Positions 34,360 through 62,842 of a DNA stretch of 64,000 nucleotides are shown here, one piece after another (within the stretch, counting starts at the first letter, position 1; every line of letters begins with the position of its first letter). The DNA comes from Citrus sinensis (taxonomy: Eukaryota; Streptophyta; Magnoliopsida; Sapindales; Rutaceae). The DNA lies in contig NC_068558.1 in assembly GCF_022201045.2 (NCBI RefSeq), positions 49,393,501 to 49,457,500 of the forward strand, in the 5' to 3' direction. Below the pieces are notes generated by a model. The model was not told the DNA's origin. It saw nothing but the letters and a program-made list of their open reading frames with translations, and did not search any database. The position numbers and the translations under genes are program-made.

Positions 34360-34980
34360 TTTCTTTTAAATATTGTTATACAGGACGGTTACTGATATTA
34401 CATAAGATATTACAATTAATATTTACAAAAAGATTATACTACTGCGTCCACTCTACTCACATTTCTTGAGGGATAGATTGGCTCCACTCAATTTACTAAT
34501 AGTGAGAGGATAGACAGGTTATACTATTACGTCCACTCTACTCACATATCTTGAGTGATAGACTGGCTCCACTCAATTTATTGATCATGAGGGATGACTT
34601 ACATTTCGTAAGGGATAGACTTACTCCATTCAATTTACTGATCGTGAGGGGATAAACAGATTATACTACTGCATCCACTCTACTCACATATCGTGATGGA
34701 TAGACTAACTCCACTCAATTTACTGATCACGAGGGATAGACTGGCTCCACACAATTTACTGATATTACATAAGATATTACAATTAATATTTACAAACAGA
34801 TTATACAACTGTGTCCACTCTACTCACATTTTGTGAGTGATAGACTGACTCCACTCAATTATTTGATAATTGAGGAATGAATGAAATTAACCCGCATAAT
34901 ATTTTTATGGAAACTCGAACCCTTACACTCAACATTGTAAGTGTAAGAATTCTTCCACTGAACTAAAAGCCCCTTGCTAT
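34360..34980 (-). mobile_element. SINE of the 12287 family with internally amplified body
   Basis: The minus-strand head (box A-like TTTAGTTCAGTGGAAGA, box B GGTTCGAGT) and the tail end (TATTACAATTAATATTTACA on the plus strand) match the 12287-12597 SINE. The body is about twice as long because a block around TCCACTCTACTCACAT is present four times (near 34447, 34530, 34673 and 34815), interleaved with CTCCACTCAATTTACTGAT repeats. A tail segment is also repeated internally near 34763. No clean target duplication was found. Confidence 0.7.
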
Positions 34981-36784
34981 TTAGAATTATTTTTCAAGAA
35001 AGTAAAAAAAGCACGGAGTGCATCAATATGATATCAGGAAATGCAAATCTTGAATTTGATAATGTATAAAATGATGTAGAGTTACATTTTGATCGTCGAA
35101 GAGACCGTACGATTTTGTCGGATTTGCGTTGTACTGGATGGATGGAGCTCTTGCTGTTGGTGGGCACTCTATATGGGGTCCTCCTATCCTATTGCGCTGC
35201 GCAGATCTAATATTAATGGTTGCAAATTTGCAATTTCCAATCAACTTTTATGCTTTTATTCTTATTGAACCCATCAGGTCACATGCCGTGACTTGATCGT
35301 TTTAAATAATTCAATGCTCCACATTCCAAGTTTTCTTCTTATGCAAAGTTGTTCAGTTGATGACATTATGGTGTTACTTCTCACTCTCTAATCCCATTAA
35401 CGATATTAACCTGCAGGAGCTGCAAGAAAAGACTTTTGACTATCAATTTTGATGCATTTTTTGTAATACGAAAATTACGGAAAAAAGTATAGGTTAAAAC
35501 TTGCCTTGGTACGAACATTTGAATAAAAACCAAGAAGATTTCACGTTCAAAGTTCAAACCCTCATTTACACACCTTTTGTGTGTCATATAATATTTAATT
35601 TGTTACATGTGTGTGTGTGTGTGTTACTCTTAGGATCCATGTGACCTTAAAATTACGTGACAATTTTACCCAGCCATAGTCGTGCACGTGAAGCACACCC
35701 ACTTGAAGTGAGTTTTGAAATAGAGGTTGATATTTAAAGAAACTGGAAAAGAGCAGACTGAGAATTCGTATTCCGTATGTTTATCATCATAGTTGGCTTG
35801 CTAATTCTGATATGCTCAGCTGTAGACTCTACTCACGAATGAATTGAGGCAAAGGGAAGAGTAGTTAAAGCTAGCGTGCTGTGCAGTGATAGCTGTTTCC
35901 TCCTTTTGATTTGAAAATTTCCTTTCATGCCATATTGTTAACAATTGCTTTAACTTGATCTACAAGTCAACAAGCAACTTATAGTCCACGGCCTAGAATT
36001 ATGTGATCCTTTTTTCTTTTTTTTTGTATGTAAGAAGAAAATATTTGATCAGTTGCAGATTCTACAAAGCACTTTGTGCATGCAACAATTTTGGAAGCGA
36101 AAACATGATCTGTCACCTCCAAACCTTTGAACCAAACACATCACCCACCAAAAAATTTAGTTTACTAATTCTATTTATGAAGTAACAATTTCATTTTATT
36201 GTTGAAGCGTAGTTGGCGAGAATCATGAGCTGAATAGTGCTAAGTTTTTTTTTTTAATAATATGCGTGTGTTTGTAATAATCTATGGTTAAGATTCGACT
36301 ATATATTAATTATTAATTATTTATTAACTATCAATCGCAATATTATTAAAAAAAAACTCAATTTAACACAAAATCTTAATCCAATTGGTGAATGGATTGA
36401 GTTTCAGCATCATATATCATCAGGAAATGTGCTGATTGCATGTTAAATAATCCATCAAACAGTCAATTTTTCTTACTATCTTTCTCCTCTGTGATGATTT
36501 TATGCAGGAATTGGGATAATGAAAACATGGCATTATTTTATATTGAGTTCGAAAATCCACATTTTATATGTTAACACAATGGGTAATATATAGATTTCAA
36601 TGTCCACCTTTTTTTTGGGGGGGGGGGGGGGAGGTTTGGGGTTGAGGTTTAGATTTCTTGCATGTGGGATGAGTTTTATTAGGAAAAAAAATTTGTTGTT
36701 CCGTAACCTTGAGAATTACAAATATGATTAATCGCTGGTGTTGCAAAGGTGCCAGCATCTCTACTCTTTGATATATATAATTAA
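34981..36784. other. Intergenic DNA upstream of AGL6
   Basis: No gene supported. It includes a (GT)n run at 35608-35624 and a T8/G15 run at 36609-36631. It may hold distal AGL6 control sequence. Confidence 0.4.
36617..36631. repeat. Poly-G run (15 G) after a T-run
   Basis: T8 followed by G15, one of several Tn-Gn junctions in the window. Confidence 0.9.
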
Positions 36785-37352
36785 GGGTTATTATCATTTT
36801 ACTACTTCAAAAATTGTCAAATATCAAATGACTACAACAAGTATTGTCTCCTATCATTTTTCTACTATATTTTTATAAAAAAATATAATTTTACTATTTT
36901 TCTGTTATAACCGTTAGTTGACCAGTTAGTTAACTAATAAAATATCAATTTCACCCTTTATGATTAAAAAAAAATTACTTGAAACTTATTTACAAAATAA
37001 AATTGTAATATATTTATTAAAATGGATATAAAAAGCCAACATAATTCTTTTTTGCTGGAATTATGAAAATGAAGTTTATTTACAAAATAAAATTGTCTTA
37101 TTATTTTTTTAATGAAGCTTATTTTTTTTTAATCATGAAGGATAAATTTGGTATTTTGTTAGTCAGCTAATTGGTCAACTAACGAGTCAACTAACGGTTG
37201 TAACGGAAAAATAGTAAAATGATATTTGTTATAACGAAAAAGTAATAAAATGATATTTGTATAAAGATATAGTCAGAAAATGATATGAGACAATATTTGT
37301 TATAATCATTTAATATTTGACAATTTTTGAAGTAGTAAAATGACAATAACCC
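36785..37352. mobile_element. MULE-type MITE with long TIRs and 9-bp TSD
   Basis: Starts GGGTTATTATCATTTTACTA and ends with its complement (TAGTAAAATGACAATAACCC). The inverted match runs about 180-200 bases each side, through TAACCGTTAGTTGAC and its partner. TATAATTAA flanks both sides directly (36776-36784 and 37353-37361), the 9-bp duplication typical of Mutator-like elements. 568 bases, no coding capacity. Confidence 0.88.
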
Positions 37353-37361
37353 TATAATTAA

Positions 37362-38629
37362 TGGGTGTTGAAGTTCAGCTACGGTAGAGCACGAATCTCT
37401 ACATAAAGTAATAAATAATAAATAACGAGTTATAATGAACTTTTTATCATTTATCATTTTGCGTGTGTGGCTTAAATTAACGCTCACTCCAATATAGCCA
37501 CAGCCATAATTAATTATTGCGGCCCGAAATTTGCCGCTCTATTAATGCAATTGGAATTATGATTCAATGTTACGCCCACTTTTCAAGGAGAGTGCGTAAG
37601 TAGCGTGATCTACCGGAAGTCAATAAAGCAATTTATATAATTTCATTCATTCATGATTAAAAAAAAAAGCAATTTAATTTGTGATACGATCTGAAGTTCA
37701 AAGAGATTAATTAATGTACTTGGGAGTTAATATGGCAAGTTAAATACGAATGTTAAAGTTAAACAAAACACGGTGAAGTACGGTGTTCATATGGGCACAT
37801 TTACGTTTTCCGGCTCTATTAATTCATCGCACTATTTTTTTCGTTTGTATTATTCAAATATTTTGTTGATGTCTTAAGTTATGGGTTACATTTGTCAACT
37901 CAACCTTTTTCTTTCTAAAAAACTGGGAATGCAATAGAACACATTTGAAATAATTTGAGCCTGAAGCACCATATACATTCATGGCTCTATTTATGCAAGG
38001 AAAGCAGCTTGAGAAAAAATTAAAAATTATTGTTTTCTAAATTATAATTAAATCGATCTCCAGTAATTAAAAAGAGATAAAAGAGGATGATTTTGAATGC
38101 TAATGTATAGAAAATGACTGCTGTAAAAAGAATCAAGTATCCATCACACTATCTTGAAAATATTTGGAATGAAAAAAGAAAAAAGAAAAAAGAAATAACC
38201 ATCACATTCAACTCAAAACTTTGATGAAATAAACCAAATGGGCATGATTAATTTCTTTTTCTTCATAATCTGTTACAATTAATGAATCGATCAGCCCACT
38301 TGCCCACCTTCACCTGATCTCTCGGTTTCTATTAGGTGCTAAGTAAAGCCTGAGAAAAAATAGCAGATAATTAAGAATCCATATTAAGGTACCATAAGAT
38401 TAAACCAAATTTGAGGGAAAAATTAATCACTAATAGCATTATATATCAACTTAGTGTGCAACAATTAACTGTCAGTAAGTCAGATTGCAATTTTAAGCGA
38501 ATCCTGATTTCTTGTTTTATGTTGTGTTGAGAATGCTGCCCAAATCAAATATTGCTTGCCCAAGTTTGGGCTCAAGGCAATAGTACGCCATTGGAGTTCC
38601 AATTGGAGGCACAAAACATGCTCTACCTG
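37362..38629. other. Intergenic DNA abutting the outer edge of the palindrome
   Basis: No gene assigned. A minus-strand frame at 38717-38517 continues out of the truncated ATX3 copy into unrelated sequence; the part beyond 38630 (with PPIGTPMAYYCLEPK) has no match in the right arm, and I do not recognise it. Confidence 0.4.
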
Positions 38630-38659
38630 GTATCAAGAGACAGTCCAATAATGACCTAC

Positions 38660-38879
38660 CTATTGCAGATAATAATTTTATTGTAGTCCCAGTCTTCAAC
38701 CCATCTACAGATAGCACATCTTTCAGTTGTCCATTTTACAGAAACAGGCTCGTACTTCTCTGTAGCAATAAAACACTGTTATGTAAGTTTCCCAATACTG
38801 AAACATCACAAAAATTTCTAGTTAAAATTTTTGAAACCCCTAAGAACACCACATCAACCCCCCCCCCCCCCCCACCCCC

Positions 38880-38910
<31 letters not shown>

Positions 38911-41900
38911 AAAAAAAACAAAAGCAACAACAACAACAACAATAATGATAATAATAATAATATCAACATGTAAATATTTCAAGGATGTGCCTATTACCTT
39001 TCATAAAAGCAAGTAGCTTTTTCTCATCTAATTTTACTGGATCCATAGCATCAGCATTAAATTCAGTGATCTGCATTGTCTTCGATGTTAATAAAAACCA
39101 TACATTTAAGAATCAAAACTTAATATGTACATATATAGCCATAATGTTTTGTTAATTGACAGATCAGATGGCTATCGGGATGTTCAATTGTTCACATGTC
39201 TACAATTAGAAAATAAAACATAGAAAAGGGAAGAGGGGAGCAGGGTTACATTCTGTCCACAAAAATAATCCAATATTCCCTGATAGGAGCAATCACTATA
39301 GATAAGGTAATTACATTTCTTGCTGATTCACTAAAGTTGGAAGGGAAACTGATGAAGCAGGCTATGGCTTTAAGGAAGGAAACTACATTTATGAGCAACA
39401 ATCACTGAGAACCAAGATAGTAGATAGCTGTGATTTCTTTTAATCATCAATACATTAAGCCAATAGCCTCCAATAATGACCAAAAGTTCTAAAAAATTTA
39501 ATATACAGATAAAAAGAATTATAAAAACAAGATGAAAGAATCAATACGAACCCATTTCCCCAGTGGTAGCATAGTGCCCAGAACTTTCACGCTATACTTC
39601 CATTTTTTTGCTCTACAGCCAGTGTGGCGTTCCCCATTCACTAAGTGTTAGCTTTTTCGGCCCACATGATCGACACCTACACACAACTCTAAAGGAAAAA
39701 GGGCAAAACATCAGTTTAGCTCAGCTATTTTTTAGAATATTCTATTCAAAACAACTTTGCCATAACCAAAGTAGTGCAACCAGAATTCCCTACTGAAAAA
39801 ACCAAGTCAAATAATCAAATAACTTGTTGACAATGTATGTGTGGCTATTAATAAGTATTTCCAAATAAAGAGTGTGAACAAACATTTTCCGAAAGAAAGA
39901 ATGGGGAGGAGGATAGAAAATGTCAGCCCTAACAGAATTTTTCAATTTGATTCTTTTAACAAAAAGAAAAAAACAATAACGGTCTTATTAAACTTATCAA
40001 GGACATTAATAAGTTCTGAGGCTTACAAATGAAGTTTTGGAAAATATGCTCCTTCGACGTCATTGCATACTACCATTATCTTGTCAGGCAGCACCATTTG
40101 CCCGTCATTTTCTACAGCACTGTCAAAAAATATTGTTTGGTATAATGTTTAAAAATTCACATCAAATGAACATCCATAATACATAGCCAAAGTAAAACAT
40201 CAGATGTCTGTAGGATTAAGTTAACATACCTGACACCTGGCTGCCATTTTCCTATATTTGATGATTGAAATTTAAACTTTACTCTGCAATTCGGGCAATA
40301 ATAATCAATGTGCTCCAGATCCTTCACAGCATAATCAGGTCAGTGAACCCCCAAACTCCATGAACATAATGAATAACATAAATAAAAACAAAATAAAATT
40401 ACAAATTAGGTAGGTGTACCTTAAAATGTTTGCCAGAAATTTCGTCACACTCAGCATGCACCCAAACATTACAACCGTCACAACATACCTGCTCCAGAGA
40501 AGTAAAACAATATTTTCTCAGTGTTTTTTACCCCCACCAAAAAAATATATATATACTAGCCCCACCGGAAGTGTGAATAATCTCACCCAATTCCCACTAT
40601 CTGAATGGTGCCAAATATTCTTGCATATGCCACAGTACTGCTCTGATTTTTGTAACTGTAAAAGGAATAAATGTGGAGATCATGTTAAGAAAAACAGTTA
40701 ATCTATTTCTTCCATCAATAGAAAAATAGAAGCTACATTCATGTCAAATAAAATTCAAGAACAGAGTCTTACGAACCTTAGAACAATGTTTACATAAAAA
40801 CTGGGTTTCAGATACTAAGCCTTTCATTCTCTTCAACTTGCAAGGTCGAAATAAGCCACAACCGTCACACACTCTTGCAACCTTATAACATGCATTCTGC
40901 AGCAGTTGATTAAACAAATGAATTCTTGAAACACAAAACAAAACTATCTGATCACTACCTACGGAAATATATTATCCAATAACCCAAAGTAACAGCTGAA
41001 AATACAAACACAAACATCCAAAGTGTTAGAAAATAAGTGTTAAGGAAAGCAGAATTTTGTGTGTACAACCACAAACAATATTATTGAACGGGTACAGTCC
41101 CCGCACAGTCTAGTAGAGTGACTATCACACAGGATGAGAACCACTAATCCACTAGAAAACATTGCACGAAAATTCCACGATGGGAAAAGTGACTAAGATT
41201 GGATTTTAGCGCCTACGACAAGACATGAAAAATTTTAAAAAGTACAAGCAATCCTCCAACTTGAAGTAGGACTGCAACAGCAATGGGAAAGGGCCAGAAA
41301 CAGCACAAAGAATATATCAAATGGTACCATCAGCACCACCTGATAACAAGACAAAAATAATTCAAATGCCAGAATATCAAAGTAAGAGGAGAGTGAGAAA
41401 AGAACAGCCTCAAACAAGTCATGCAGAAGGATATAACATTGTAGATGGATGGTAAACCTAAGCTAGTGTATAAACTTTCAATTCATCACCACAAATTTAA
41501 AAAAGCAGATTCAGTTCATAACTGCATGCAACATGTACATCTGTGTAGCAGTACTTTGAAAAGTTTACCTAATTTATTAACTTAATTCAGATGTTACACA
41601 AGCCTCTTCTGTGCAAATCATCCAAGAATTGAATATTTAAGTAACAGTTTTATGGTAAACAACAAGACAGAAAAACCAAAGCTAATTTAATTTAATCATA
41701 TGCATGTGAATCTTGCTGAATAGTGATTAGAGCCTTGCAACGCATCCGTGAAATTTCAATGCACCACAAAGTAGTGAAATTATGAAGAACTTACCTGATT
41801 CTGAGGGCAGTATTCCAGATCCTGACCTGAACCCGTGGCCTCTTGGCCTCTGCGGGAATAAGCTTCTGGACCAATTTGCCCAATACCAAGGTTCAAGTCC

Positions 41901-43089
41901 AAAAAACCATTTTCTGCCAAAACTGCCTCCTCCAGGGCAATCTGAAAACCACTGATCTTGCTCTTGTGCAACTGGGTTGGCTCCTGAAATCTAAACAAAC
42001 AGAAAATCAAGAAAACCCTTTATACTCTAAAAATATTATTGTGCAATCATCCAAAAATGGAAATATACACACTTGTCCATGAATTCCGCAAAAGGGAATA
42101 GCATCCCTTGCTTCACCCATCCATAGTCCTGCCCATCAACATCATTACAAACAATTTAAGTGAAAACATGATGACCATATATTAAACAAAAGAAACCAAC
42201 AAAATGAAAACATGAGAGACTTATATACCCTTTGTGTTCCATTCTTTGAGTAGCCAAAAAACATGACACAGAGGCAGCCAGGAATACAGCACCTCAACAC
42301 AGCTTCAGGCGCTTGCAAAATGGGATCAATTACAACAGCAGGCCAAGCTGGATACGACCTCCCACATTTAGCCCAAACTAAATCACCCAGAGCAAAATCC
42401 TCAGGCTTGTAAACATCCTTCCTCTTTTTCTTTTTCTCTTTCTCTTTTGTAATTCTCTCTACATTCCTAGAACTAAACCCTGGCATAAACTGTTTCTTAC
42501 CCGCCATTGGCAAAGAATTTACATTACCTGCCGGCATAACAGGGCGACGCGAAACCAAATACTCTCTCGGATCAAAACCATTATATCCTCTATAATTTGA
42601 ATTTCCAAATCTATACTTATCCATGGTAAAACCCAACTTATCAAAATCCCCGTTCACTTCTATAATATCAACATCATCTTCCTCGTCAAAGCTTGAATCC
42701 GTGTCACCAACAACAAGAACCGAATCATCATATCTGGAAGGAAGTATTTGAGTCCTTCCTTTCGAAGGTTTCAATGCTGGAGGTCGAAACCTGTCGGAGC
42801 TCCGGTTTGTGCCTCTTCCTTTATAATTAAAATTGTTCAAATCAGGTTCAAATTCGGGGTCCCAACATGTGGCTTCCTCGCTAATAAAAGAACTTGAGCC
42901 ACTGCTTAAATCATCGACTTCAACATGCATTAAGCTTTGATGACAATCGTCGCCTCCTCTTCTTCTTCGTTTCTTTGGATTTGCTACGTAAGCATACTCA
43001 TCGGCGACTTCATTTTCCTCGCACGACTCTGCAATCTTGCAAAATTGTGGATTTGGCATTTCGAGTTTCGAAGGTCGTTTTATAATCAT
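38660..43089 (-). pseudogene. Truncated, frameshifted mirror copy of ATX3 (exons 1-11)
   Basis: Minus-strand exons mirror the intact gene: 43089-42229, 42128-42073, 41990-41795, 40896-40777, 40655-40587, 40488-40420, 40321-40230, 40119-40027, 39688-39552, 39070-38998, 38759-38660. They cover the PWWP domain, the first PHD finger and the start of the second. Everything beyond is missing, including the rest of PHD2, the extended PHD, SET and post-SET. Exon 9 has one extra C on the plus strand (CCCC at 39632-39635 against three in the mirror), which shifts the frame within the ..SEWERHTGC.. segment. The copy cannot make an active methyltransferase. It keeps the full 2-kb upstream region, so it may be transcribed. 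Confidence 0.9.
38858..38918. repeat. Long poly-C/poly-A tract in the left arm
   Basis: C16 A C26 followed by A18, in ATX3-copy intron 10. The mirror tract at about 51200-51258 (T-run then interrupted G-run) differs in length and interruptions, the largest visible difference between the arms. Confidence 0.9.
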
Positions 43090-43100
43090 ACCTTTCAGAC

Positions 43101-43236
43101 AAACCCTAACTTCCCATCCAACACGGCAAATTATATACTCACCTTATCTAAACCAGCGACTTAATGTTTGTATTTCCGTACAATTAAATTTGTTAATATT
43201 AAAACCCTAGCCCTAGACTTTAACTCGAAACCCTAA
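43101..43236 (-). promoter_or_regulatory. Telobox cluster, left-arm copy
   Basis: Mirror of 46878-47013. On the plus strand the motifs read AAACCCTAA, AAAACCCTA and AAACCCTAA. Confidence 0.55.
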
Positions 43237-44029
43237 CTTGCGGCGCTGGCGGAGGAGACTTACGAAATACCGCACGTTTCTGTTTCCGTTAAGAAACGAT
43301 TTAGAGATAATTGGATGAATATTTGTGAATAGCAATCGCCGAATTAGTAGCGACGACAGAGAAAATCAATTTTCCCTGCAAAAATAATACAATTTTCTGA
43401 GAAACCCGACGAGCTGAGCGGAGGTGGTAAAGACGCAGGGTGCTGTTTGGCTAACGACGAGTTCTACACAAGGCACGAAGTACAGTGCATATATATTTTT
43501 TAAATAATAAATTTGATTAAAACGCAGTTATTATGAATTTATGAGATTAAAATATGGAGCTACGGTGGGGTCCATACCAAATATGACGTGCTTTGGCTCC
43601 AAATATTTGGAGAGGGAGGGAGGGTAAGGAATATTGCGTCCTCGAAAGCGCGAAGTGAAAAGTCGAGAGGTAGCATAGAAATTTTATGCTATGTTTCCGC
43701 GAGGATGCATCGTGCATCTTGTCGAGCACGTGGCCAACGGTTACTGACCTTACAGTTGCTTGTAAAATAATGTAGATGTATATTTTGTACGCTGTCACGA
43801 CGAGAGGTAACGGCTTATTGCGTGACTTCCGTCTGTTAGCCCGCGGGTGCGCACCCGTACCGGTGGTGCGCAAAACTGATCTATATCTATATGGCTCGAT
43901 ACCCGACTAGTGACTGTAGAAGCCTGAAGGAGAATGCTTCGTTCCAGCGTTCAAAAAATAAAATAATATAAACTAAACATCGTGCCATTAATTTTAAATA
44001 ATTATTAAATATTGGGTCATTTTATAGTA

Positions 44030-45000
44030 TCATCATTAAAATTACAGTATTATTTTTGTAATTAAATATAAATTATATAAACAAAACGTAAGAAATATAA
44101 ATTTAATATAAAACTTATAAATTAACATTAAATATAAAGCAATACGTAAATTATGTAAATGGAACATCGGATTTGTAAATACAATGTAAATAAGTAAACT
44201 AATATAAGAATGCTAAATTGATATACTATTGGTGGATAAAATAAAAACTTATAGATGTAATATAAAAATTGTAAATTAATATTAAGTACAAAATAAAATA
44301 TAAATTGTGTAAATGAAATATAAAACTTGTAAAAAGAAGGTAAAATAAGTAAATCAATATAAGTGTGCTAAACTGATGTATTATTAGTAAATAAAGCAAA
44401 AACTTATAGATTTAATGTAAAACTTATAAATCAACAAAAAGTGTAAAATAAGTCATAAATGATGCAAATGGAACATAAGCCTAAAACATAAAAGGTAAAA
44501 TAAGTAAATTAACATAGTAGTGATAAATTGATATATCATTATTAAACAAAATAAAAATTTATTAATATAACATGAAACTTGAAAATCAACATTAAGTGTG
44601 AAATAAAACATAAATTAAGTAAATAAAATATAAGACCTGTAAATAAAATGTAAAATAAGTAGATTAACATATAAGTGGTAAAGATGCTGTATTATTGGTA
44701 AACAAAACTTAAAATACACATGTAACATAAAACTTGTGAATTAACGTTATGTGTAAAATAAAAAATAAATTAAGTAAATAAAACATAAGACCTCTAAATA
44801 AAAGGTAAAATAAATAAACTAATATAGGAATGGTCAAATGATGTATTATTGGTAAACAAAACATAAACTTACATAGATAATATAAAACTTGTAAATCAAC
44901 ATTAAATGTAAAATAACATTTAATTATATAAATGAAATAGAAGACTTATAAATGAAATGTAAACGAAGTAAATATTACAAGAGTTATTAAAAAAATTATA
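44030..45000. repeat. Degenerate ~155-bp minisatellite, left arm
   Basis: A block with GAT(A/G)TA(C/T)TATT recurs at about 44220, 44375, 44530, 44696 and 44840, a mean spacing near 155. Each unit also carries TAAAACTTATAAATCAACATTAA-like and AAAATAAGTAAA-like segments. About six diverged, almost G/C-free units. Confidence 0.8.
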
Positions 45001-45045
45001 AATATATAATAAAAACTCATTGTGATAATGATTACCTTATATATT

Positions 45046-45068
45046 CAATTTAGAAACAAAAAACAGTA
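45046..45068. other. 23-bp asymmetric spacer at the palindrome centre
   Basis: The only unpaired bases between the arms. Directly flanking it, TTACCTTATATATT on the left pairs with AATATATAAGGTAA on the right. Confidence 0.95.
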
Positions 45069-45113
45069 AATATATAAGGTAATCATTATCACAATGAGTT
45101 TTTATTATATATT

Positions 45114-46085
45114 TATAATTTTTTTAATAACTCTTGTAATATTTACTTCGTTTACATTTCATTTATAAGTCTTCTATTTCATTTATATAATTAAATGTTA
45201 TTTTACATTTAATGTTGATTTACAAGTTTTATATTATCTATGTAAGTTTATGTTTTGTTTACCAATAATACATCATTTGACCATTCCTATATTAGTTTAT
45301 TTATTTTACCTTTTATTTAGAGGTCTTATGTTTTATTTACTTAATTTATTTTTTATTTTACACATAACGTTAATTCACAAGTTTTATGTTACATGTGTAT
45401 TTTAAGTTTTGTTTACCAATAATACAGCATCTTTACCACTTATATGTTAATCTACTTATTTTACATTTTATTTACAGGTCTTATATTTTATTTACTTAAT
45501 TTATGTTTTATTTCACACTTAATGTTGATTTTCAAGTTTCATGTTATATTAATAAATTTTTATTTTGTTTAATAATGATATATCAATTTATCACTACTAT
45601 GTTAATTTACTTATTTTACCTTTTATGTTTTAGGCTTATGTTCCATTTGCATCATTTATGACTTATTTTACACTTTTTGTTGATTTATAAGTTTTACATT
45701 AAATCTATAAGTTTTTGCTTTATTTACTAATAATACATCAGTTTAGCACACTTATATTGATTTACTTATTTTACCTTCTTTTTACAAGTTTTATATTTCA
45801 TTTACACAATTTATATTTTATTTTGTACTTAATATTAATTTACAATTTTTATATTACATCTATAAGTTTTTATTTTATCCACCAATAGTATATCAATTTA
45901 GCATTCTTATATTAGTTTACTTATTTACATTGTATTTACAAATCCGATGTTCCATTTACATAATTTACGTATTGCTTTATATTTAATGTTAATTTATAAG
46001 TTTTATATTAAATTTATATTTCTTACGTTTTGTTTATATAATTTATATTTAATTACAAAAATAATACTGTAATTTTAATGATGAT
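45114..46085. repeat. Degenerate ~155-bp minisatellite, right arm
   Basis: Mirror image of the left array. Together the two arrays make about 2 kb of inverted AT-rich repeats around the centre. Confidence 0.8.
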
Positions 46086-46877
46086 ACTATAAAATGACCC
46101 AATATTTAATAATTATTTAAAATTAATGGCACGATGTTTAGTTTATATTATTTTATTTTTTGAACGCTGGAACGAAGCATTCTCCTTCAGGCTTCTACAG
46201 TCACTAGTCGGGTATCGAGCCATATAGATATAGATCAGTTTTGCGCACCACCGGTACGGGTGCGCACCCGCGGGCTAACAGACGGAAGTCACGCAATAAG
46301 CCGTTACCTCTCGTCGTGACAGCGTACAAAATATACATCTACATTATTTTACAAGCAACTGTAAGGTCAGTAACCGTTGGCCACGTGCTCGACAAGATGC
46401 ACGATGCATCCTCGCGGAAACATAGCATAAAATTTCTATGCTACCTCTCGACTTTTCACTTCGCGCTTTCGAGGACGCAATATTCCTTACCCTCCCTCCC
46501 TCTCCAAATATTTGGAGCCAAAGCACGTCATATTTGGTATGGACCCCACCGTAGCTCCATATTTTAATCTCATAAATTCATAATAACTGCGTTTTAATCA
46601 AATTTATTATTTAAAAAATATATATGCACTGTACTTCGTGCCTTGTGTAGAACTCGTCGTTAGCCAAACAGCACCCTGCGTCTTTACCACCTCCGCTCAG
46701 CTCGTCGGGTTTCTCAGAAAATTGTATTATTTTTGCAGGGAAAATTGATTTTCTCTGTCGTCGCTACTAATTCGGCGATTGCTATTCACAAATATTCATC
46801 CAATTATCTCTAAATCGTTTCTTAACGGAAACAGAAACGTGCGGTATTTCGTAAGTCTCCTCCGCCAGCGCCGCAAG

Positions 46878-47013
46878 TTAGGGTTTCGAGTTAAAGTCTA
46901 GGGCTAGGGTTTTAATATTAACAAATTTAATTGTACGGAAATACAAACATTAAGTCGCTGGTTTAGATAAGGTGAGTATATAATTTGCCGTGTTGGATGG
47001 GAAGTTAGGGTTT
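46878..47013 (+). promoter_or_regulatory. Three teloboxes in the ATX3 leader
   Basis: TTAGGGTTT at 46878-46886, TAGGGTTTT at 46905-46913 and TTAGGGTTT at 47005-47013, the last only 12 bases before the ATG. Teloboxes near start sites are bound by TRB Myb proteins and have been linked to both growth genes and Polycomb recruitment. A G-box-like CCACGTGC lies further up at 46381-46388. Confidence 0.6.
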
Positions 47014-47024
47014 GTCTGAAAGGT

Positions 47025-50000
47025 ATGATTATAAAACGACCTTCGAAACTCGAAATGCCAAATCCACAATTTTGCAAGATTGCAGAGTCGTGCGAGGAAA
47101 ATGAAGTCGCCGATGAGTATGCTTACGTAGCAAATCCAAAGAAACGAAGAAGAAGAGGAGGCGACGATTGTCATCAAAGCTTAATGCATGTTGAAGTCGA
47201 TGATTTAAGCAGTGGCTCAAGTTCTTTTATTAGCGAGGAAGCCACATGTTGGGACCCCGAATTTGAACCTGATTTGAACAATTTTAATTATAAAGGAAGA
47301 GGCACAAACCGGAGCTCCGACAGGTTTCGACCTCCAGCATTGAAACCTTCGAAAGGAAGGACTCAAATACTTCCTTCCAGATATGATGATTCGGTTCTTG
47401 TTGTTGGTGACACGGATTCAAGCTTTGACGAGGAAGATGATGTTGATATTATAGAAGTGAACGGGGATTTTGATAAGTTGGGTTTTACCATGGATAAGTA
47501 TAGATTTGGAAATTCAAATTATAGAGGATATAATGGTTTTGATCCGAGAGAGTATTTGGTTTCGCGTCGCCCTGTTATGCCGGCAGGTAATGTAAATTCT
47601 TTGCCAATGGCGGGTAAGAAACAGTTTATGCCAGGGTTTAGTTCTAGGAATGTAGAGAGAATTACAAAAGAGAAAGAGAAAAAGAAAAAGAGGAAGGATG
47701 TTTACAAGCCTGAGGATTTTGCTCTGGGTGATTTAGTTTGGGCTAAATGTGGGAGGTCGTATCCAGCTTGGCCTGCTGTTGTAATTGATCCCATTTTGCA
47801 AGCGCCTGAAGCTGTGTTGAGGTGCTGTATTCCTGGCTGCCTCTGTGTCATGTTTTTTGGCTACTCAAAGAATGGAACACAAAGGGTATATAAGTCTCTC
47901 ATGTTTTCATTTTGTTGGTTTCTTTTGTTTAATATATGGTCATCATGTTTTCACTTAAATTGTTTGTAATGATGTTGATGGGCAGGACTATGGATGGGTG
48001 AAGCAAGGGATGCTATTCCCTTTTGCGGAATTCATGGACAAGTGTGTATATTTCCATTTTTGGATGATTGCACAATAATATTTTTAGAGTATAAAGGGTT
48101 TTCTTGATTTTCTGTTTGTTTAGATTTCAGGAGCCAACCCAGTTGCACAAGAGCAAGATCAGTGGTTTTCAGATTGCCCTGGAGGAGGCAGTTTTGGCAG
48201 AAAATGGTTTTTTGGACTTGAACCTTGGTATTGGGCAAATTGGTCCAGAAGCTTATTCCCGCAGAGGCCAAGAGGCCACGGGTTCAGGTCAGGATCTGGA
48301 ATACTGCCCTCAGAATCAGGTAAGTTCTTCATAATTTCACTACTTTGTGGTGCATTGAAATTTCACGGATGCGTTGCAAGGCTCTAATCACTATTCAGCA
48401 AGATTCACATGCATATGATTAAATTAAATTAGCTTTGGTTTTTCTGTCTTGTTGTTTACCATAAAACTGTTACTTAAATATTCAATTCTTGGATGATTTG
48501 CACAGAAGAGGCTTGTGTAACATCTGAATTAAGTTAATAAATTAGGTAAACTTTTCAAAGTACTGCTACACAGATGTACATGTTGCATGCAGTTATGAAC
48601 TGAATCTGCTTTTTTAAATTTGTGGTGATGAATTGAAAGTTTATACACTAGCTTAGGTTTACCATCCATCTACAATGTTATATCCTTCTGCATGACTTGT
48701 TTGAGGCTGTTCTTTTCTCACTCTCCTCTTACTTTGATATTCTGGCATTTGAATTATTTTTGTCTTGTTATCAGGTGGTGCTGATGGTACCATTTGATAT
48801 ATTCTTTGTGCTGTTTCTGGCCCTTTCCCATTGCTGTTGCAGTCCTACTTCAAGTTGGAGGATTGCTTGTACTTTTTAAAATTTTTCATGTCTTGTCGTA
48901 GGCGCTAAAATCCAATCTTAGTCACTTTTCCCATCGTGGAATTTTCGTGCAATGTTTTCTAGTGGATTAGTGGTTCTCATCCTGTGTGATAGTCACTCTA
49001 CTAGACTGTGCGGGGACTGTACCCGTTCAATAATATTGTTTGTGGTTGTACACACAAAATTCTGCTTTCCTTAACACTTATTTTCTAACACTTTGGATGT
49101 TTGTGTTTGTATTTTCAGCTGTTACTTTGGGTTATTGGATAATATATTTCCGTAGGTAGTGATCAGATAGTTTTGTTTTGTGTTTCAAGAATTCATTTGT
49201 TTAATCAACTGCTGCAGAATGCATGTTATAAGGTTGCAAGAGTGTGTGACGGTTGTGGCTTATTTCGACCTTGCAAGTTGAAGAGAATGAAAGGCTTAGT
49301 ATCTGAAACCCAGTTTTTATGTAAACATTGTTCTAAGGTTCGTAAGACTCTGTTCTTGAATTTTATTTGACATGAATGTAGCTTCTATTTTTCTATTGAT
49401 GGAAGAAATAGATTAACTGTTTTTCTTAACATGATCTCCACATTTATTCCTTTTACAGTTACAAAAATCAGAGCAGTACTGTGGCATATGCAAGAATATT
49501 TGGCACCATTCAGATAGTGGGAATTGGGTGAGATTATTCACACTTCCGGTGGGGCTAGTATATATATATTTTTTTGGTGGGGGTAAAAAACACTGAGAAA
49601 ATATTGTTTTACTTCTCTGGAGCAGGTATGTTGTGACGGTTGTAATGTTTGGGTGCATGCTGAGTGTGACGAAATTTCTGGCAAACATTTTAAGGTACAC
49701 CTACCTAATTTGTAATTTTATTTTGTTTTTATTTATGTTATTCATTATGTTCATGGAGTTTGGGGGTTCACTGACCTGATTATGCTGTGAAGGATCTGGA
49801 GCACATTGATTATTATTGCCCGAATTGCAGAGTAAAGTTTAAATTTCAATCATCAAATATAGGAAAATGGCAGCCAGGTGTCAGGTATGTTAACTTAATC
49901 CTACAGACATCTGATGTTTTACTTTGGCTATGTATTATGGATGTTCATTTGATGTGAATTTTTAAACATTATACCAAACAATATTTTTTGACAGTGCTGT

Positions 50001-53000
50001 AGAAAATGACGGGCAAATGGTGCTGCCTGACAAGATAATGGTAGTATGCAATGACGTCGAAGGAGCATATTTTCCAAAACTTCATTTGTAAGCCTCAGAA
50101 CTTATTAATGTCCTTGATAAGTTTAATAAGACCGTTATTGTTTTTTTCTTTTTGTTAAAAGAATCAAATTGAAAAATTCTGTTAGGGCTGACATTTTCTA
50201 TCCTCCTCCCCATTCTTTCTTTCGGAAAATGTTTGTTCACACTCTTTATTTGGAAATACTTATTAATAGCCACACATACATTGTCAACAAGTTATTTGAT
50301 TATTTGACTTGGTTTTTTCAGTAGGGAATTCTGGTTGCACTACTTTGGTTTATGGCAAAGTTGTTTTGAATAGAATATTCTAAAAAATAGCTGAGCTAAA
50401 CTGATGTTTTGCCCTTTTTCCTTTAGAGTTGTGTGTAGGTGTCGATCATGTGGGCCGAAAAAGCTAACACTTAGTGAATGGGAACGCCACACTGGCTGTA
50501 GAGCAAAAAAATGGAAGTATAGCGTGAAAGTTCTGGGCACTATGCTACCACTGGGGAAATGGGTTCGTATTGATTCTTTCATCTTGTTTTTATAATTCTT
50601 TTTATCTGTATATTAAATTTTTTAGAACTTTTGGTCATTATTGGAGGCTATTGGCTTAATGTATTGATGATTAAAAGAAATCACAGCTATCTACTATCTT
50701 GGTTCTCAGTGATTGTTGCTCATAAATGTAGTTTCCTTCCTTAAAGCCATAGCTTGCTTCATCAGTTTCCCTTCCAACTTTAGTGAATCAGCAAGAAATG
50801 TAATTACCTTATCTATAGTGATTGCTCCTATCAGGGAATATTGGATTATTTTTGTGGACAGAATGTAACCCTGCTCCCCTCTTCCCTTTTCTATGTTTTA
50901 TTTTCTAATTGTAGACATGTGAACAATTGAACATCCGGATAGCCATCTGATCTGTCAATTAACAAAACATTATGGCTATATATGTACATATTAAGTTTTG
51001 ATTCTTAAATGTATGGTTTTTATTAACATCGAAGACAATGCAGATCACTGAATTTAATGCTGATGCTATGGATCCAGTAAAATTAGATGAGAAAAAGCTA
51101 CTTGCTTTTATGAAAGGTAATAGGCACATCCTTGAAATATTTACATGTTGATATTATTATTATTATCATTATTGTTGTTGTTGTTGTTGTTGCTTTTGTT
51201 TTTTTTTTTTTTTTTTTGGGCGGGGGGGGGGGGGGGGGGAGTTGGGGTGGCGGGAGGGTTGATGTGGTGTTCTTAGGGGTTTCAAAAATTTTAACTAGAA
51301 ATTTTTGTGATGTTTCAGTATTGGGAAACTTACATAACAGTTTTTTATTGCTACAGAGAAGTACGAGCCTGTTTCTGTAAAATGGACAACTGAAAGATGT
51401 GCTATCTGTAGATGGGTTGAAGACTGGGACTACAATAAAATTATTATCTGCAATAGGTAGGTCATTATTGGTTGTCTCTTGATACCAGGTAGATTGGGGT
51501 GGTTAAATGATAAACCATTTGCAGGCAAGGGGATTGAAGCTTATATTGTATTCTTTTGGAGATTTTTTTCTTTATTTATTGATTTTTTTCTCAACCTAAA
51601 TGGCATTGTTATTTGTTCAGGTGCCAGATAGCTGTTCACCAAGAATGCTATGGGGTAACTGATGTTCAAGATTTTACCTCATGGGTTTGTAGAGCATGCG
51701 AAATGCCTAATGCTGAGAGGAAATGTTGCCTCTGTCCTGTGAGAGGTATGTCCTCGTAATTGAATGTGGTAATAGTTCTTAACTGTTCTGTTTTTTTTGT
51801 ATATGGCATGCGTAGATAGTGTATTTACACACATGACACATGTAAGTATTACCTGTAGTTGAAATGGAAAGAAAATGGTCAGTGCCATAATTTATAGTTT
51901 CTGCATGGTCTTGTGAAACTTTTTTTTTTTTTTGAAATATGCAAAACAAAACAGTAGTTATGTCGCTTCTTTTAGGACTTCTAAAATATTGGTTGATTCC
52001 AATTTAATTTAGATGATGCTGCAATCGTAGTAGTTATACTTCCATTTATGATTTCTCTTTGCCTATTAGCAAATATAAATGTGATGATGTAGCATTTTGA
52101 TTATGTATTCTGAGCATTAGTATTTAATGCAGTTATGATTTTCTCTGAAAATGTTGGCTCCAATCTCAATGCTTGTCTGTCTCATCATATTTAGAACTGA
52201 TTTTTGATTATGCATACTGAGCAATGTAAGTCAGACTACATGTCTACCTATGTCTGACAAAGGGCTTGTCTTCAATGCCGGCTTGTCTTCAATGCCAGCT
52301 TGTCTTAACATGTTGAAACTGCTTTTTTAGGGGGTGCACTGAAACCAACAGATGTTCAAACTCTTTGGGTTCATGTTACATGCGCTTGGTTCCGGCCTGA
52401 GATTGGTTTCTTGAATCATGAGAAAATGGAACCGGCAACTGGAATTCTTAGAATTCCAACAAATTTGTTTTTAAAGGTATGATGTGGTTATGATGATCAT
52501 CTAATGAGCTTTCTTTCCTCCTACTTCAATCAAGCATCTTTTTAAGGCAGTGCTTAAAGACTGTCCCTGCCATGCTTGGGTTCTATTTCGCATTCATTTA
52601 AAGAAAGTTCTCTTGGCATTGGTTTATTTATTTATTATTATTATTTTCTTTTAGTGTATGGGTGTTGAGTTGACTGCTTGTCTCTGAAATTTTTCTTAAA
52701 TGTATTGACTGCAGAGTTGCATAATCTGTAAGCAAACTCATGGTTCGTGCACTCAGTGTTGCAAGTGTGCCACGTATTTTCATGCAATGTGTGCCTCAAG
52801 AGCAGGATACTGCATGGAAGTAAGTCTTATTGTTCTTTGCTCGTAAACAAATTCATTTTTTGAGAGTTGTAATTTCATGGAATATGTCTACAATGGAAGA
52901 TAGTGATTAAAAATGATTTTTTTTTCTTATTTTTCACACATGATTTTGCTTACAATGGTCAGTGCATTAAGGAAATGAGGGTTGAACGTTGTAAATTATT

Positions 53001-54988
53001 TCATTAATTTTTAATATTGAACTTCAGATACACAGCTTGGAGAGGTATGGCAAACAGATAACAAGGAAGTTGATATACTGTGCTGTCCACAGGTTGGAAA
53101 AATTTACTGTTCATTGGTTTCTTTATTTTTCATATTTTCTGATTTCAATCTGTTCTTCCATTGAAAGACAAAAGAATTGTCCAACTTTATGCACCATATC
53201 TTATGGTTTTTGGTCTTCGTTCCTTCGTATCTTGATTTTTGGTACAGGACCCCAAATCCAGATGCTGTTGTAGCTTTCCACACTCCAACAGGGGTTTTTG
53301 CTGGTAGAAGCTTGCTTCAGAACCAGAGAGGCTGTTTCCGTGGTTCAAGGCTGGTTTCAGCTAAGAGAACAGAGGACTCTGAATCACCATCCCCTGATAC
53401 TAATGACTTCGAACCTCTATCTGCTTCAAGATGTCGTGTTTTCAAACGATCAAAGAATAAGGTGATGAATTTGGGAACCTTATACTTTTTAAAAAAGGAA
53501 TTGTTGAAATTTTAGCCATGCTTTTTTCGAGGTTGCGTTTCTTTTGGTACAAAATGTCATGTCAGATGTGACTTTTGTTTAGTTTGTAGCTGACTTCTTG
53601 TGATCTATCTCTTTTCTTCTTGTTTGCAGAGCATGGAAAGGGAGCCGATATGCCACCGACCAATGGGGCCAAGACATCATTCTTTGGATGCAGTTATTAG
53701 CTTGAACACATATAAAGTGATATTCTTGTCTTTGTTTTATTTTTTTCTCATCGTTTCCTTAGATTGTTTTTGTTTGCTGGTAATATTCCATTTTATACTT
53801 ACATGCTTATTTTGTCTTATGACAGGAAGTTGATAAACCTGAGATTTTCTCTTCATTCAAGGAAAGACTTTACCACTTACAGGTACACCATCATTTTTAA
53901 TGTGAAATGACTGATGCCTACAGGCCATCATCTCAATTTTTTTTTTGTTTGGGGGGGGGGGGGGGGGGGGTTGTTTTCCTCAGAGAACTGAAAAGCATCG
54001 GGTTTGTTTCGGGAAATCTGGCATACATGGATGGGGCCTCTTCGCTCGTAGACATATTCAAGAAGGAGAAATGGTACTAAATTAAGATTTTACAATTATC
54101 CATTTTCAAACTTGTGGGTTTAAGTATTCAACTTGTCTGGAATTTTTTTGATACCTCGAATAAGACAATCAGTGTCTGGTTTCCTCATTAGTGATGTGAT
54201 AGTTATAGAAGGCATTTATATCTCCAGGTTGTTGAGTATCGTGGTGAGCAGGTAACTCAAAGCATTGCTGATCTAAGGGAGAAACAATATCGTAAAGAAG
54301 GCAAAGATTGCTATGTGAGTTCCTTATTCAGTAATCCATGGCCGTGACCATGGGATTGTTGTGGCAGAGCTTGTATTATTTGATTGCAATTATAACTTAC
54401 TGTTCCTTTCTTGTGTGATGAAGAGTTTGAATTTCTCAATGTGGTGAACTATCTATCCTTTCCTAGGTGTTTAATGGTAATAATTGATTTGTTTGAAACT
54501 TGGGCTTTTGGGACTTTTGAAAAGTCTGTCAATAGTATAAATATGATGTGAAAATTGTAGATGAGAGAAATTGATAGGCATCTTCCTAAAAGAAAAGGTT
54601 CAATGTAGGGCAATGGAGATAATGGAGTTCACAGCATTCACCTGTCTGGCAAGCAGGTGCCAACATGGTATATTTGTTGAGGACTTTTCCTGCTTTGGTT
54701 TCTGTGGGCTTTGTGAAAATGGCTACCTCCTTTTCATCCACCTTGCTTCAACCCCCACTTGATTTAGGGCAGAACAACTTTTTATTATTGCTGCTATATG
54801 CTTTGTTTTAATATTTATTGGATTATTTAATCTTTAAATTAATGGTTCCTGCAGCTATTCAAGATCAGTGAGGAAGTGGTAATTGATGCCACAAATAAGG
54901 GGAATATAGCTCGCTTAATCAACCATTCAGTAAGTTCTTGTTACAAAAGTTAATAACAAAATCTTCAAGATTCTCTTTGGGGTGTTTG

Positions 54989-55021
<33 letters not shown>

Positions 55022-55926
55022 GAAGCTCTACCCTAACTTGTAATTTCCTCATTCTTTTGCCTGATCAATTAGTCTGAGTTTGGATTTGGTTGGCTTGGGT
55101 TAGGTTAGTGAAATTTGTGTTGACCGTACACAGATTCTGTCAATTAATACTTATATCGGTGCATGTGGTTGTGCAAAGGCATTGTATACCCTGCTTTTCT
55201 TGGTTCTGCTCTCCTGGTATCTGAAGTTCTCAGACCCTGGTTACTTGCATTGCACCATTTGAGCCTACGACAAAATAACGCCAAAAAAGGAAAAAAAATG
55301 CATTATTTTAAGGAAAGTGATTATAAGGAGACAACAATTTTGATTTGGTCTGGATCTTTCAGGTTCTAATGATTAGTGTTGCTTTTAGAACCTGAGCTTC
55401 ACGCCTGTTTCCACCCATTGGTCTTGTTGTAGTCACCAAAAGTTGCTTCTATTTTGTGCTTAAGTCAGTAATTGTTGTTGCAACTGTTTTATGAACCAAA
55501 AATTACTTCTGTTTCATTAATTGTTGTTGCAACTGTTATATGAAATTCGACCTTGATTCTTAGTTCATACATTTATTTGGCCCTATGTGGTAGCATTTTT
55601 AAAATGATGTTAAAAATTTATTCCTTCTGTTGCAGTGCATGCCTAACTGCTATGCAAGGATCATGAGTGTGGGAGATTGCGAGAGCCGGATAGTTCTTAT
55701 TGCTAAGACCAATGTGTCAGCTGGTGATGAATTAACGTATGATCTTCCCCACCACTACCCCCCCAACAAACAATATAAATTTTGGTTTCTTGGTTGAGGA
55801 ATAAATTATTGTGCTTTTATTTATTTATTTTACAGGTATGATTACTTATTTGATCCGGATGAGCATGACGAATTGAAAGTCCCTTGCCTATGTAAAGCTC
55901 CTAACTGTCGGATGTTTATGAACTAG
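47025..55926 (+). CDS. ATX3: Trithorax-type histone H3K4 methyltransferase (ATX3-like)
   Basis: Twenty-three exons: 47025-47885, 47986-48041, 48124-48319, 49218-49337, 49459-49527, 49626-49694, 49793-49884, 49995-50087, 50427-50562, 51044-51116, 51357-51456, 51621-51745, 52331-52476, 52715-52819, 53028-53092, 53248-53461, 53630-53716, 53826-53882, 53984-54073, 54228-54314, 54855-54929, 55636-55736, 55836-55926. They give 1035 codons plus TAG, all phases consistent. A basic N-terminus leads to PWWP (from about 228, [20 protein letters not shown]), a PHD ([13 protein letters not shown]), PHD2 ([14 protein letters not shown]) with extended PHD ([11 protein letters not shown]), SET from about 890 ([23 protein letters not shown]) and post-[11 protein letters not shown]. 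No FYRN/FYRC block, so the ATX3/4/5 group; adjacency to RMF points to ATX3. Nuclear chromatin enzyme. Exons 1-11 lie in the palindrome; 12-23 are single-copy. Confidence 0.93.
51202..51258. repeat. T-run/G-run in ATX3 intron 10
   Basis: About 17 T, GGGC, about 18 G, then GTTGGGGTGGCGGGAGGG-like sequence. Mirror counterpart of the left-arm tract, with different interruptions. Confidence 0.85.
52263..52306. repeat. Short 17-bp tandem repeat in ATX3 intron 12
   Basis: GGCTTGTCTTCAATGCC occurs twice and a third partial copy begins AGCTTGTCTT. Confidence 0.85.
53951..53970. repeat. Poly-G run (20 G) near an ATX3 3' splice site
   Basis: G20 lies 10 bases before the TTGTTTTCCTCAG-type acceptor of exon 19 (AG ends at 53983), where a pyrimidine-rich tract is usual. 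Confidence 0.9.
54989..55021. repeat. (CT)n(AT)n microsatellite in ATX3 intron 21
   Basis: Simple dinucleotide repeats following TTTGTC. Confidence 0.9.
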
Positions 55927-61266: not shown

Positions 61267-61893
61267 TTCTGCTTAATTCTCACATATATATTAGCAAATA
61301 TCAGATAATTCTAACTTCGGGACAATTGGTATGCCTAACTCAAAGTTCAGAGGGGATCATTCTTCAGCAATCATTCCGATCTTACCCCTCATTGTAGAAA
61401 TTATTACAAGATACTGGACAAGTCTTATCTACGATTCAAGATTTATAGCCACTAGTTAATGTCTGTAATCGTGAAGTTCAGTTTTGCTGTAGAGTTTTTC
61501 AGGTAGTTATGCTTCTTAAAATGAAGGAGCCATAAGTTCATTTCTTAATTTCTTTTCGTTTGCCTTCAAAATTAGCATAGGCTGATGAATATAGAAGTGG
61601 TTTCAGTTTTCACTTTTTAAAACATTAAAGGATTTCTATTGTCAAACTATACGTCGGCATGCCGTACTACAAATTGTATGCATAGACTTTTCCCCTTGTA
61701 CTTGCCTTGAACTTATTGCCTATGGGCAAATTTACAAAGAAGTTGCTGTCATAGAAAGCTAGAGCAAATAAAATAGTCTTTGACTTCAGGTTTGTTTTTT
61801 AGTTTAATCAACGAAGTCCCGAAACCAAACATCTTTAATTATCCACTAGTCCTGCTCGTCTCTGGAATTAGTCCTTCATCATTCATCATCAAT
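61267..61893. other. Spacer between the RMF-like and ATL-like genes
   Basis: RMF-like 3' UTR and the short promoter of the next gene. No further feature found. Confidence 0.4.
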
Positions 61894-62566: not shown

Positions 62567-62842
62567 GTAATTATCTTTCTTAATCTTGATTAATCGAATG
62601 CTAATTGCCATCAGAAGAAGGGCCACAGAAACTTAAATACAGGGGATACACACACACACACACATGCAAATTTCTTTTCCTATTAAAGCAATTGACTTAA
62701 CTAAAGACACTGTTTTGATTGCATGTCAAGCGTTTAAGCTATTGGCATTAGATTAAAGAAAAAGTGACTATCGAAATACAATGTCAGATCCTGGGGATGT
62801 GGGAAATGAAAACGTCATTACTTAAATATAATATGATTAGTG

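Follow-up and report, generated by a model that had tools for sequence, protein, structure and literature searches.

ODIRA at yeast SUL1, as described by Brewer and colleagues (PMC4689423, PMC10766186), yields a triplication with an inverted middle copy in which distal sequence is kept, and one of its junctions lies where a short inverted repeat, its halves separated by a small spacer, was already present. Both features recur at a natural locus on chromosome 3 (C3) of the sweet orange, Citrus sinensis. In roughly 5-10% of yeast ODIRA cases, new spacer-widening microhomology junctions are reported, and long palindromes are called rare and unstable in natural genomes (parts of PMC10766186). The orange locus lies in a 64,000-nucleotide stretch of C3 (the window; unprefixed positions refer to it). 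We hold with good confidence that its palindrome is real, the product of an inverted-triplication event in a transposable element in an ancestor of Citrus chromosome 3, later homogenised by conversion. A literature search found no account of the locus in the available portions of the articles consulted, including PMC11992330, PMC10873711, and PMC4525380.

The inverted alignment covers 38622-51493 at 99.6% identity. A left arm (38622..45045, minus strand) and a right arm (45069..51493, plus strand) flank a spacer, CAATTTAGAAACAAAAAACAGTA (45046..45068), which marks the fold-back point J1. The arms match exactly between 39764-45045 and 45069-50350 (5,282 bp, 100%, 23 nt between), and over this length the 23-base spacer and the position pairs summing to 90114 without net indel given in the preliminary description hold. 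The inverted arms it described are present, but the left edge falls at 38622, 8 bases outside the 38630 that it gave. Twelve substitutions separate the window arms, eight of them in a poly-C/poly-A stretch (51161-51270), along with a few small indels. TATT and AATA beside the spacer are the two sides of an inverted microhomology of 4 bp in the ancestral sequence. A hairpin is predicted for a 65-nt single strand at the spacer (z = -8.1). No promoter or terminator was found in a scan of the spacer with bacterial patterns, a negative to which we attach no weight.

Mapping of citrus ATX proteins places an ATX3-type histone-lysine methyltransferase gene at 47025..55926 (plus strand), in 23 coding exon stretches of which none has an internal stop. 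A PWWP domain is found in the window gene, and PHD and SET domains in the citrus proteins. Eleven of the 23 coding exons lie within the right arm, as expected from the earlier claim that this arm carries exons 1-11 of an intact gene. The left arm holds a truncated, divergent copy of the same exons (38659..43089, minus strand; approximate mirror coordinates). Exon mapping also bears out that this copy ends in the intron after exon 11, the left arm end corresponding to the intron that precedes exon 12 (51619-51747).

The assembly duplicates a far larger block, and this accounts for a second, longer palindrome, R2 (C3:48080326-48094279, centre C3:48087293-48087315), which has an identical spacer, sits 1.35 Mb upstream on C3, and is unmentioned in the preliminary description. 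Units A1 (C3:48080870-49432121) and A2 (C3:49432122 to ~50762730) form a direct tandem duplication: in the assembly, as sampled at each end, the unit ends occur twice in the same orientation and the outer flanks once. The units meet between C3:49432121 and C3:49432122, at window position 38622, where they overlap by 1 bp; small anomalies occur 17 bp away on one side and 22 bp on the other. The window copy stands at the head of A2, and the duplication breakpoint falls inside its left arm. The left outer edge, taken in the preliminary description for the end of the fold-back, is in fact the join of the two 1.35-Mb units; the true edge, kept in R2, lies 545 bp farther out. These outermost 545 bp (51494..52038, plus strand) hold exon 12 and continue the right arm to 52038 in R2. 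R2 has their mirror, at 2.2% divergence, and the window left arm lacks it; the left-arm gene copy comprises exons 1-12 in R2 versus 1-11 in the window. Aligned blocks totalling ~73.6 kb hold 182 mismatches between A1 and A2 (0.25%; individual blocks range from 0.08 to 0.74%); the units also differ by insertions of up to 0.7 kb, and a 2.1-kb comparison at the opposite unit end shows 7 substitutions. Eight of 58 matched open-frame rows (51 queries) fall below 100%, several of the eight being only putative genes, and such protein differences are too few for a broader comparison of the units.

R2 preserves what the window copy has lost. Its segments read L, a forward, (a+b) inverted, the 23-nt spacer, then a-b-c forward, where a is the central 0.77 kb. 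The third copy of a (C3:48079560-48080329), at the end of the R2 left arm, keeps the ancestral flank L, which at full length occurs once, adjoining R2. The end of this copy, whose window counterpart is 45804..45815 (plus strand; last four bases TATA), forms the outer join J2 (C3:48080318-48080329). Here a 4-bp microhomology, TATA, links partners ~6.2 kb apart (the other at window 52035-52038) with no short-loop inverted repeat, and the inverted arm of R2 ends exactly where the third copy does. J1 lies at an inverted repeat whose 4-bp halves enclose 23 nt, as seen in the third copy. A 9-base inverted repeat at the centre was considered as the priming site and rejected: only TATT precedes the spacer in common with the third copy, which sets the ancestral repeat at 4 bp. 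Beyond the right arm come the gene and the sequence downstream of it, and distal sequence is therefore retained on both sides. Across A1 and its flank, copy number is one for L, three for a, two for b, and one for c. Set against ODIRA, R2 thus contains a three times with the middle copy inverted, and has J1 but not J2 at a short inverted repeat.

The sequence that folded back belongs to a transposable element with 155-bp tandem repeats (right-arm part 45046..46101, plus strand; mirror ~44013-45045). Three relatives of the element were compared. Two of them, L007 (C6) and L008 (C4), align in a single piece through a and the spacer into L (1,538 and 1,506 bp, 79-80%), and L006 (C7) does so in two pieces with an insertion between them. 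Against the palindrome, all three alignments stop at 45037-45044, its centre. L-spacer-a is the ancestral contiguous sequence of the element.

Divergence between the R2 arms falls from 2.2% at the outer ends through 0.49% at 3-6 kb to 0.03% near the centre. The outermost part carries 12 substitutions in 538 sites versus 16 in 6087 across 45069-51160 (Fisher p 7e-7; noncoding only p 5e-4). Between the third copy and the arms there are 14 substitutions in ~770 bp (1.8%), where the arms differ from each other at 1 of 746 sites; judged against the outer ends and the third copy, the inner arms are more alike than their age predicts. This gradient fits arm-to-arm gene conversion, which would have been strongest near the centre. 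In the window, the apparent direction varies by site: 45137 would have been converted right to left, and 48213 left to right if S once stood in the window right arm. Polishing or assembly homogenisation, rather than conversion, could also account for the perfect match between the window arms over 5.28 kb.

A second C. sinensis contig, 50541887 (50,541,887 bases long), probably the other homologue, is known here from its annotated proteins rather than its DNA. One of these, P0024, reads through the truncated gene into the R2-type left flank and has the left-arm residue K. The R2 left arm and flank differ from the contig proteins at D/H, E/V, and R/C, and the window copy differs at L/S from R2 and from the full-length proteins of the contig; consequently, no two copies are wholly alike. 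That R2 simply copies the other homologue is unsupported for the left arm and flank, while the rest of A1 may possibly be such a copy. SDE2, a second gene for typing the other homologue, had none of its 106 listed relatives on the contig and was thus uninformative.

Three rival explanations bear on these data. A library or assembly fold-back absent from the plant, which the preliminary description had kept open, is now very improbable. Exact identity of the window arms across 5,282 bp, the small anomalies flanking the window left edge, and the use of CLR sequencing and Canu for what is likely this assembly (PMC9832951) are all as an artefact might have it. This reading is strongly weakened because the two loci differ, their arms carry specific substitutions, and P0024 from a second contig crosses the same left edge. 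The substitutions in the R2 arms are independent and the outer arm ends 2.2% diverged, left-arm alleles are common to the window and R2 (site 51342, poly-G interruptions), and the ancestral junction in the third copy is backed by the element relatives. A different history, in which an old direct duplication of a was followed by a younger, adjoining fold-back, is unlikely. The 1.8% divergence of the third copy, against near-identical arms there, is what such a history would leave, and the third copy could on that account be older than the palindrome. However, divergence reaches 2.2% in the last 545 bp of the arms, giving the palindrome an apparent age equal to that of the third copy, and the inverted arm stops exactly at that copy's end. 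One event is inseparable from two because J2 has no short-loop inverted repeat.

The 1.35-Mb duplication may be chromosomal, or the assembly may have duplicated haplotypes. The chances are about even that the palindrome is real and the window copy an assembly duplication, in which one of the two units is the other haplotype of this locus placed end to end with the first and the phase switches within the palindrome. The A1/A2 mismatch of 0.25% with insertions is what two mandarin haplotypes might show; the join has its 1-bp overlap and local anomalies; P0003, which has the R2-type residue S, is listed on two contigs; and the likely assembly joined contigs into pseudo-chromosomes, with no 1.35-Mb chromosome 3 duplication named in the available parts of its description (PMC9832951). 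Against it stand the residue differences that leave no two copies wholly identical and the absence of any N in 324 kb around both palindrome copies. The contig is also 1.77 Mb shorter than C3, a shortfall explicable by a real duplication on one homologue and equally by a false one. If the duplication is false, genes of this chromosome 3 block are counted twice in the citrus assembly. A more tentative reading, to which we give clearly less weight, is a long-lived natural inverted triplication in which one palindromic junction has escaped erosion beside a preserved copy of the sequence where folding back started, present on both homologues since about the mandarin-pummelo split and converted from the centre outwards, whose instability supplied a real 1.35-Mb duplication breakpoint.

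The palindrome itself was probably made by DNA copying that doubled back inside the mobile element. J1 and J2 would represent two template switches of the ODIRA or tandem inverted duplication class. Replication in the element upstream of the ATX3-type gene probably doubled back at the short inverted repeat by either mechanism, and the second join would come from a microhomology switch or from a second palindromic junction that eroded later. Arm-to-arm conversion, chiefly near the centre, would then have held the arms alike, and the duplication breakpoint in the left arm would have left the trimmed window copy at the start of A2. Fold-back template switching, proposed from the window, is backed by R2, where the ancestral junction survives.

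To our knowledge, the orange locus has no sex-chromosome role. Gene-converting sex-chromosome palindromes (willow W, PMC7023750; primate Y, cited there) likewise have gene-bearing arms, conversion, and uneven divergence, but the orange arms are 7 kb long and the spacer is 23 nt, not the kilobases described for willow W-type palindromes (PMC7023750). Human DUP-TRP/INV-DUP (PMC10766186) also has an inverted triplication adjoining a duplication, and many of the joins listed for it have 0-5 bp of homology; its copy-number profile is 1-2-3-2-1 rather than the 1-3-2-1 of the orange, and the orange arms measure ~7 kb. The tandem inverted duplication model (Kugelberg and others; PMC4689423) differs in that the second orange switch lacks a second short interrupted inverted repeat. 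Compared with yeast ODIRA, in which repeats of 5-6 bp enclose 40-80 bp, the orange has a 4-bp repeat with 23 nt, and is a natural plant locus with one junction still palindromic and arms later homogenised. It has been proposed that inverted triplications whose junctions are palindromic act as unstable precursors, mostly seen after secondary rearrangement (PMC10766186). In the orange, one junction is intact and the ancestral fold-back sequence lies nearby, which allows base-level reading of the switch points and their dating from a single genome, and the divergence gradient offers a direct handle on the sites of arm-to-arm conversion in a plant chromosome.

The palindrome in the window is very probably real. 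As the preliminary description proposed, it is an inverted repeat with 23 nt between its arms; over 39764-45045 and 45069-50350 (5,282 bp each) these are 100% complementary. A gapped inverted alignment covers 38622-51493 at 99.6% identity, with a few small indels and 12 substitutions between the arms, 8 of them inside a poly-C/poly-A stretch (51161-51270). The exact identity of the inner arms could reflect conversion or an assembly effect. A 65-nt strand across the centre folds as a single hairpin, as expected of any palindrome. Elsewhere in the window, a 315-bp unit is repeated in tandem, with three copies in direct orientation (18139-19091; 99.4-99.7% identical); there are also direct repeats of ~105-141 bp (34389-34860), and open frames at 58308-58565 and 61777-62580 with an F-box-like domain and a wall-associated-kinase galacturonan-binding domain.

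Pfam places a PWWP domain in the window. A composite of two citrus models maps 23 coding exon stretches to 47025-55926 with no internal stops, and the right arm holds 11 of them. The mapped exons bear out the earlier claim that the left-arm gene copy ends before exon 12 (51619-51747). The long citrus proteins P0001-P0015 are all listed with PWWP and SET, and 11 of them with PHD (PF00628) as well; their source-record names differ (ATX3, ATX4, ATX5).

The window is C3:49393501-49457500 of a genome of 299.7 Mb (11 contigs). Searching that genome with the central kilobase (at least 66 matches; 40 of 513 candidates scored) recovers two mirror pairs, one in the window and one at C3:48.087 Mb. It also finds a partial third copy (98%) at 48.0796 Mb, along with a family of diverged sequences. 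The upstream pair belongs to R2, a longer palindrome at C3:48080326-48094279 whose spacer, at 48087293, is the same as the window's. Homology between the two regions begins at window 38622 (C3:48080870) and runs to the ends of the compared sequence, with insertions of up to ~0.7 kb. The R2 left arm ends at the counterpart of window 52038 and includes a counterpart of exon 12, which the window left arm lacks. Its gene copy is decaying: exon 4 has lost 2 bp, and G has become A at 51620, apparently removing a splice acceptor. Immediately left of this arm lies the third copy (C3:48079560-48080329, forward). Its sequence matches window 45046-45815 except for 14 substitutions and two indels of a single base.

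Relatives of the central element reveal the ancestral order. The R2 left flank, L, adjoins the spacer of the third copy on the left. Three element-family members were compared, on C7, C6 and C4. Those on C6 and C4 align in one piece at 79-80%. Each alignment starts at the end of the central ~0.77 kb, a, crosses the spacer and enters L: for the C6 member it covers 48080329 to 48078843, and for the C4 member 48080319 to 48078870. The C7 member aligns in two pieces separated by an insertion, one from 48080329 across the spacer to 48079416, the other over 48078973-48079423. Against the palindrome, all three match the right arm and end at 45037-45044, at most 9 bases from the spacer. Because the relatives run through L-spacer-a but end at the palindrome centre, the centre is a derived breakpoint inside the element, which spans ~1.7 kb and has 155-bp tandem repeats. 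At this central junction, J1 (spacer 45046-45068), the third copy and the palindrome share TATT before the spacer and differ beyond it. This 4-bp overlap is complementary to the AATA after the spacer, so in the ancestral sequence the 23 nt were flanked by a 4-bp inverted repeat. The outer junction of the R2 left arm with the third copy, J2, has a 4-bp overlap, TATA, between sites that the ancestral order separates by ~6.2 kb.

Between the R2 arms, divergence is lowest near the centre and increases outwards, with 1/2999 substitutions in the first 3 kb, 15/3088 at 3-6 kb and 12/538 over 51494-52038, excluding the low-complexity 51161-51270 (15/104) and 51271-51493 (2/223). The contrast between inner (16/6087) and outer (12/538) sites is significant (Fisher p = 7e-7) and persists at noncoding sites only (15/4274 versus 8/409, p = 5e-4). 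Substitutions in region a number 1/746 between the arms, against 14 in ~770 for the third copy (p = 9e-4). Since the outer arm ends and the third copy are both ~2% diverged, the arm interiors appear to have been homogenised. The 4,353,521 SNVs given for the two haplotypes (PMC9832951) amount, by our own arithmetic, to ~1.5% of 299 Mb; on this rough comparison, which is no dating, the age of the palindrome looks similar to that of the mandarin-pummelo split. The four arms differ in a poly-C/poly-A (poly-G/poly-T) tract (38842-38923 and 51194-51271), both in its length and in the bases that interrupt it, and the interruptions AGTTG and TGGCG are specific to right arms. The window's outer left arm keeps left-arm alleles, at 51342 and in lacking the right arms' poly-G interruptions, which shows that it derives from the same left arm as that of R2.

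In the assembly, C3:48080870-50762730 is a 1.35-Mb direct tandem duplication of units A1 (C3:48080870-49432121) and A2 (C3:49432122 to ~50762730), as sampled at the ends of the units. Nine aligned blocks show 182 mismatches in ~73.6 kb (0.25%, range 0.08-0.74%). Between the window's left flank (36500-38622) and its match from C3:50760604 onward there are 7 substitutions in 2.1 kb, and sequence at C3:49344501 is found again at 50675029. The R2 left flank and the sequence beyond 50762750 each occur full-length once; part of the R2-flank query also matches a diverged repeat family. The units join at window 38622 with a 1-bp overlap; on either side of the join are small anomalies, 17 bp away on the left and 22 bp away on the right. 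The window palindrome is a truncated duplicate, and its outer left edge arose either in an event of its own or through joining in the assembly. What makes the locus interesting is the conversion gradient and the survival of the ancestral junction rather than that edge. Just left of the join is a MITE-like foldback element of ~585 bp with inverted internal halves (36776-37362), with dozens of matches at ~65-92%, many in both orientations (40 of 226 candidates scored). An SDE2 homologue in two open frames (L015:2270-4017) differs between A1 and A2 at two residues of one frame, one of which (S/I) falls in the part taken as coding.

Whether the duplication is real or false is evenly balanced. The same genes are present on a second C. 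sinensis contig, B (50,541,887 bases), taken as the other chr3 homologue. Its protein P0024 follows the truncated gene, then enters the R2 left flank (minus strand; C3 48081007-48080915, 48080744-48080562, 48080445-48080401, 48077035-48076922, 48076516-48076451 and 48071320-48071264). P0024, P0040 and the R2 left arm share K in CCLCPVK, where both right arms have R; R2's V is missing from both proteins and its H from P0024, while P0040 lacks the H stretch. At FSDLNLG, S is coded only by the R2 right arm, and L by both window arms and the R2 left arm. Among the proteins listed with contig 52308633, P0003, P0007, P0010 and P0011 have S. On contig 50541887, S occurs in P0005 and P0006, which reach the SET end; the truncated P0024 and P0040 have L. 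S is absent at this position from all 101 non-citrus relatives compared (64 carry L, 8 lack an aligned residue, the others vary), so S is derived, common to the R2 right arm and B and missing from the window. The residue sets are therefore L/L in the window; L,K,H,V (left) and S (right) in R2; and L,K,D,E (left) and S (right) in B. That no two are identical throughout speaks for three real copies. Two haplotypes with a phase switch inside the palindrome would also produce this pattern, and the 0.25% divergence of A1 and A2 suits two haplotypes of one species. The Valencia assembly DVS_A, which the assembly studied here appears to be, was made with PacBio CLR data, and its contigs were linked up as pseudo-chromosomes (PMC9832951). 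If the duplication is false, genes in C3:48080870-50762730 are counted twice.

Mechanistically, the palindrome belongs to a known class, and it is preserved unusually well. The order L-a-(ab)inverted-a-b-c probably results from two switches: a fold-back at the short inverted repeat of J1 and a second join through microhomology. J2 would be either that second switch or an eroded second palindrome. In one account of ODIRA, a replication fold-back model for inverted triplication, junctions map to repeats of 5-6 bp that are 40-80 bp apart, and in ~5-10% of yeast cases a new junction at microhomology leaves a wider spacer (PMC10766186). The smallest loop reported among stable yeast junctions is 17 bp (PMC4689423). 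J1, with 4 bp around 23 nt, lies near the range of these yeast junctions, although its repeat is shorter.
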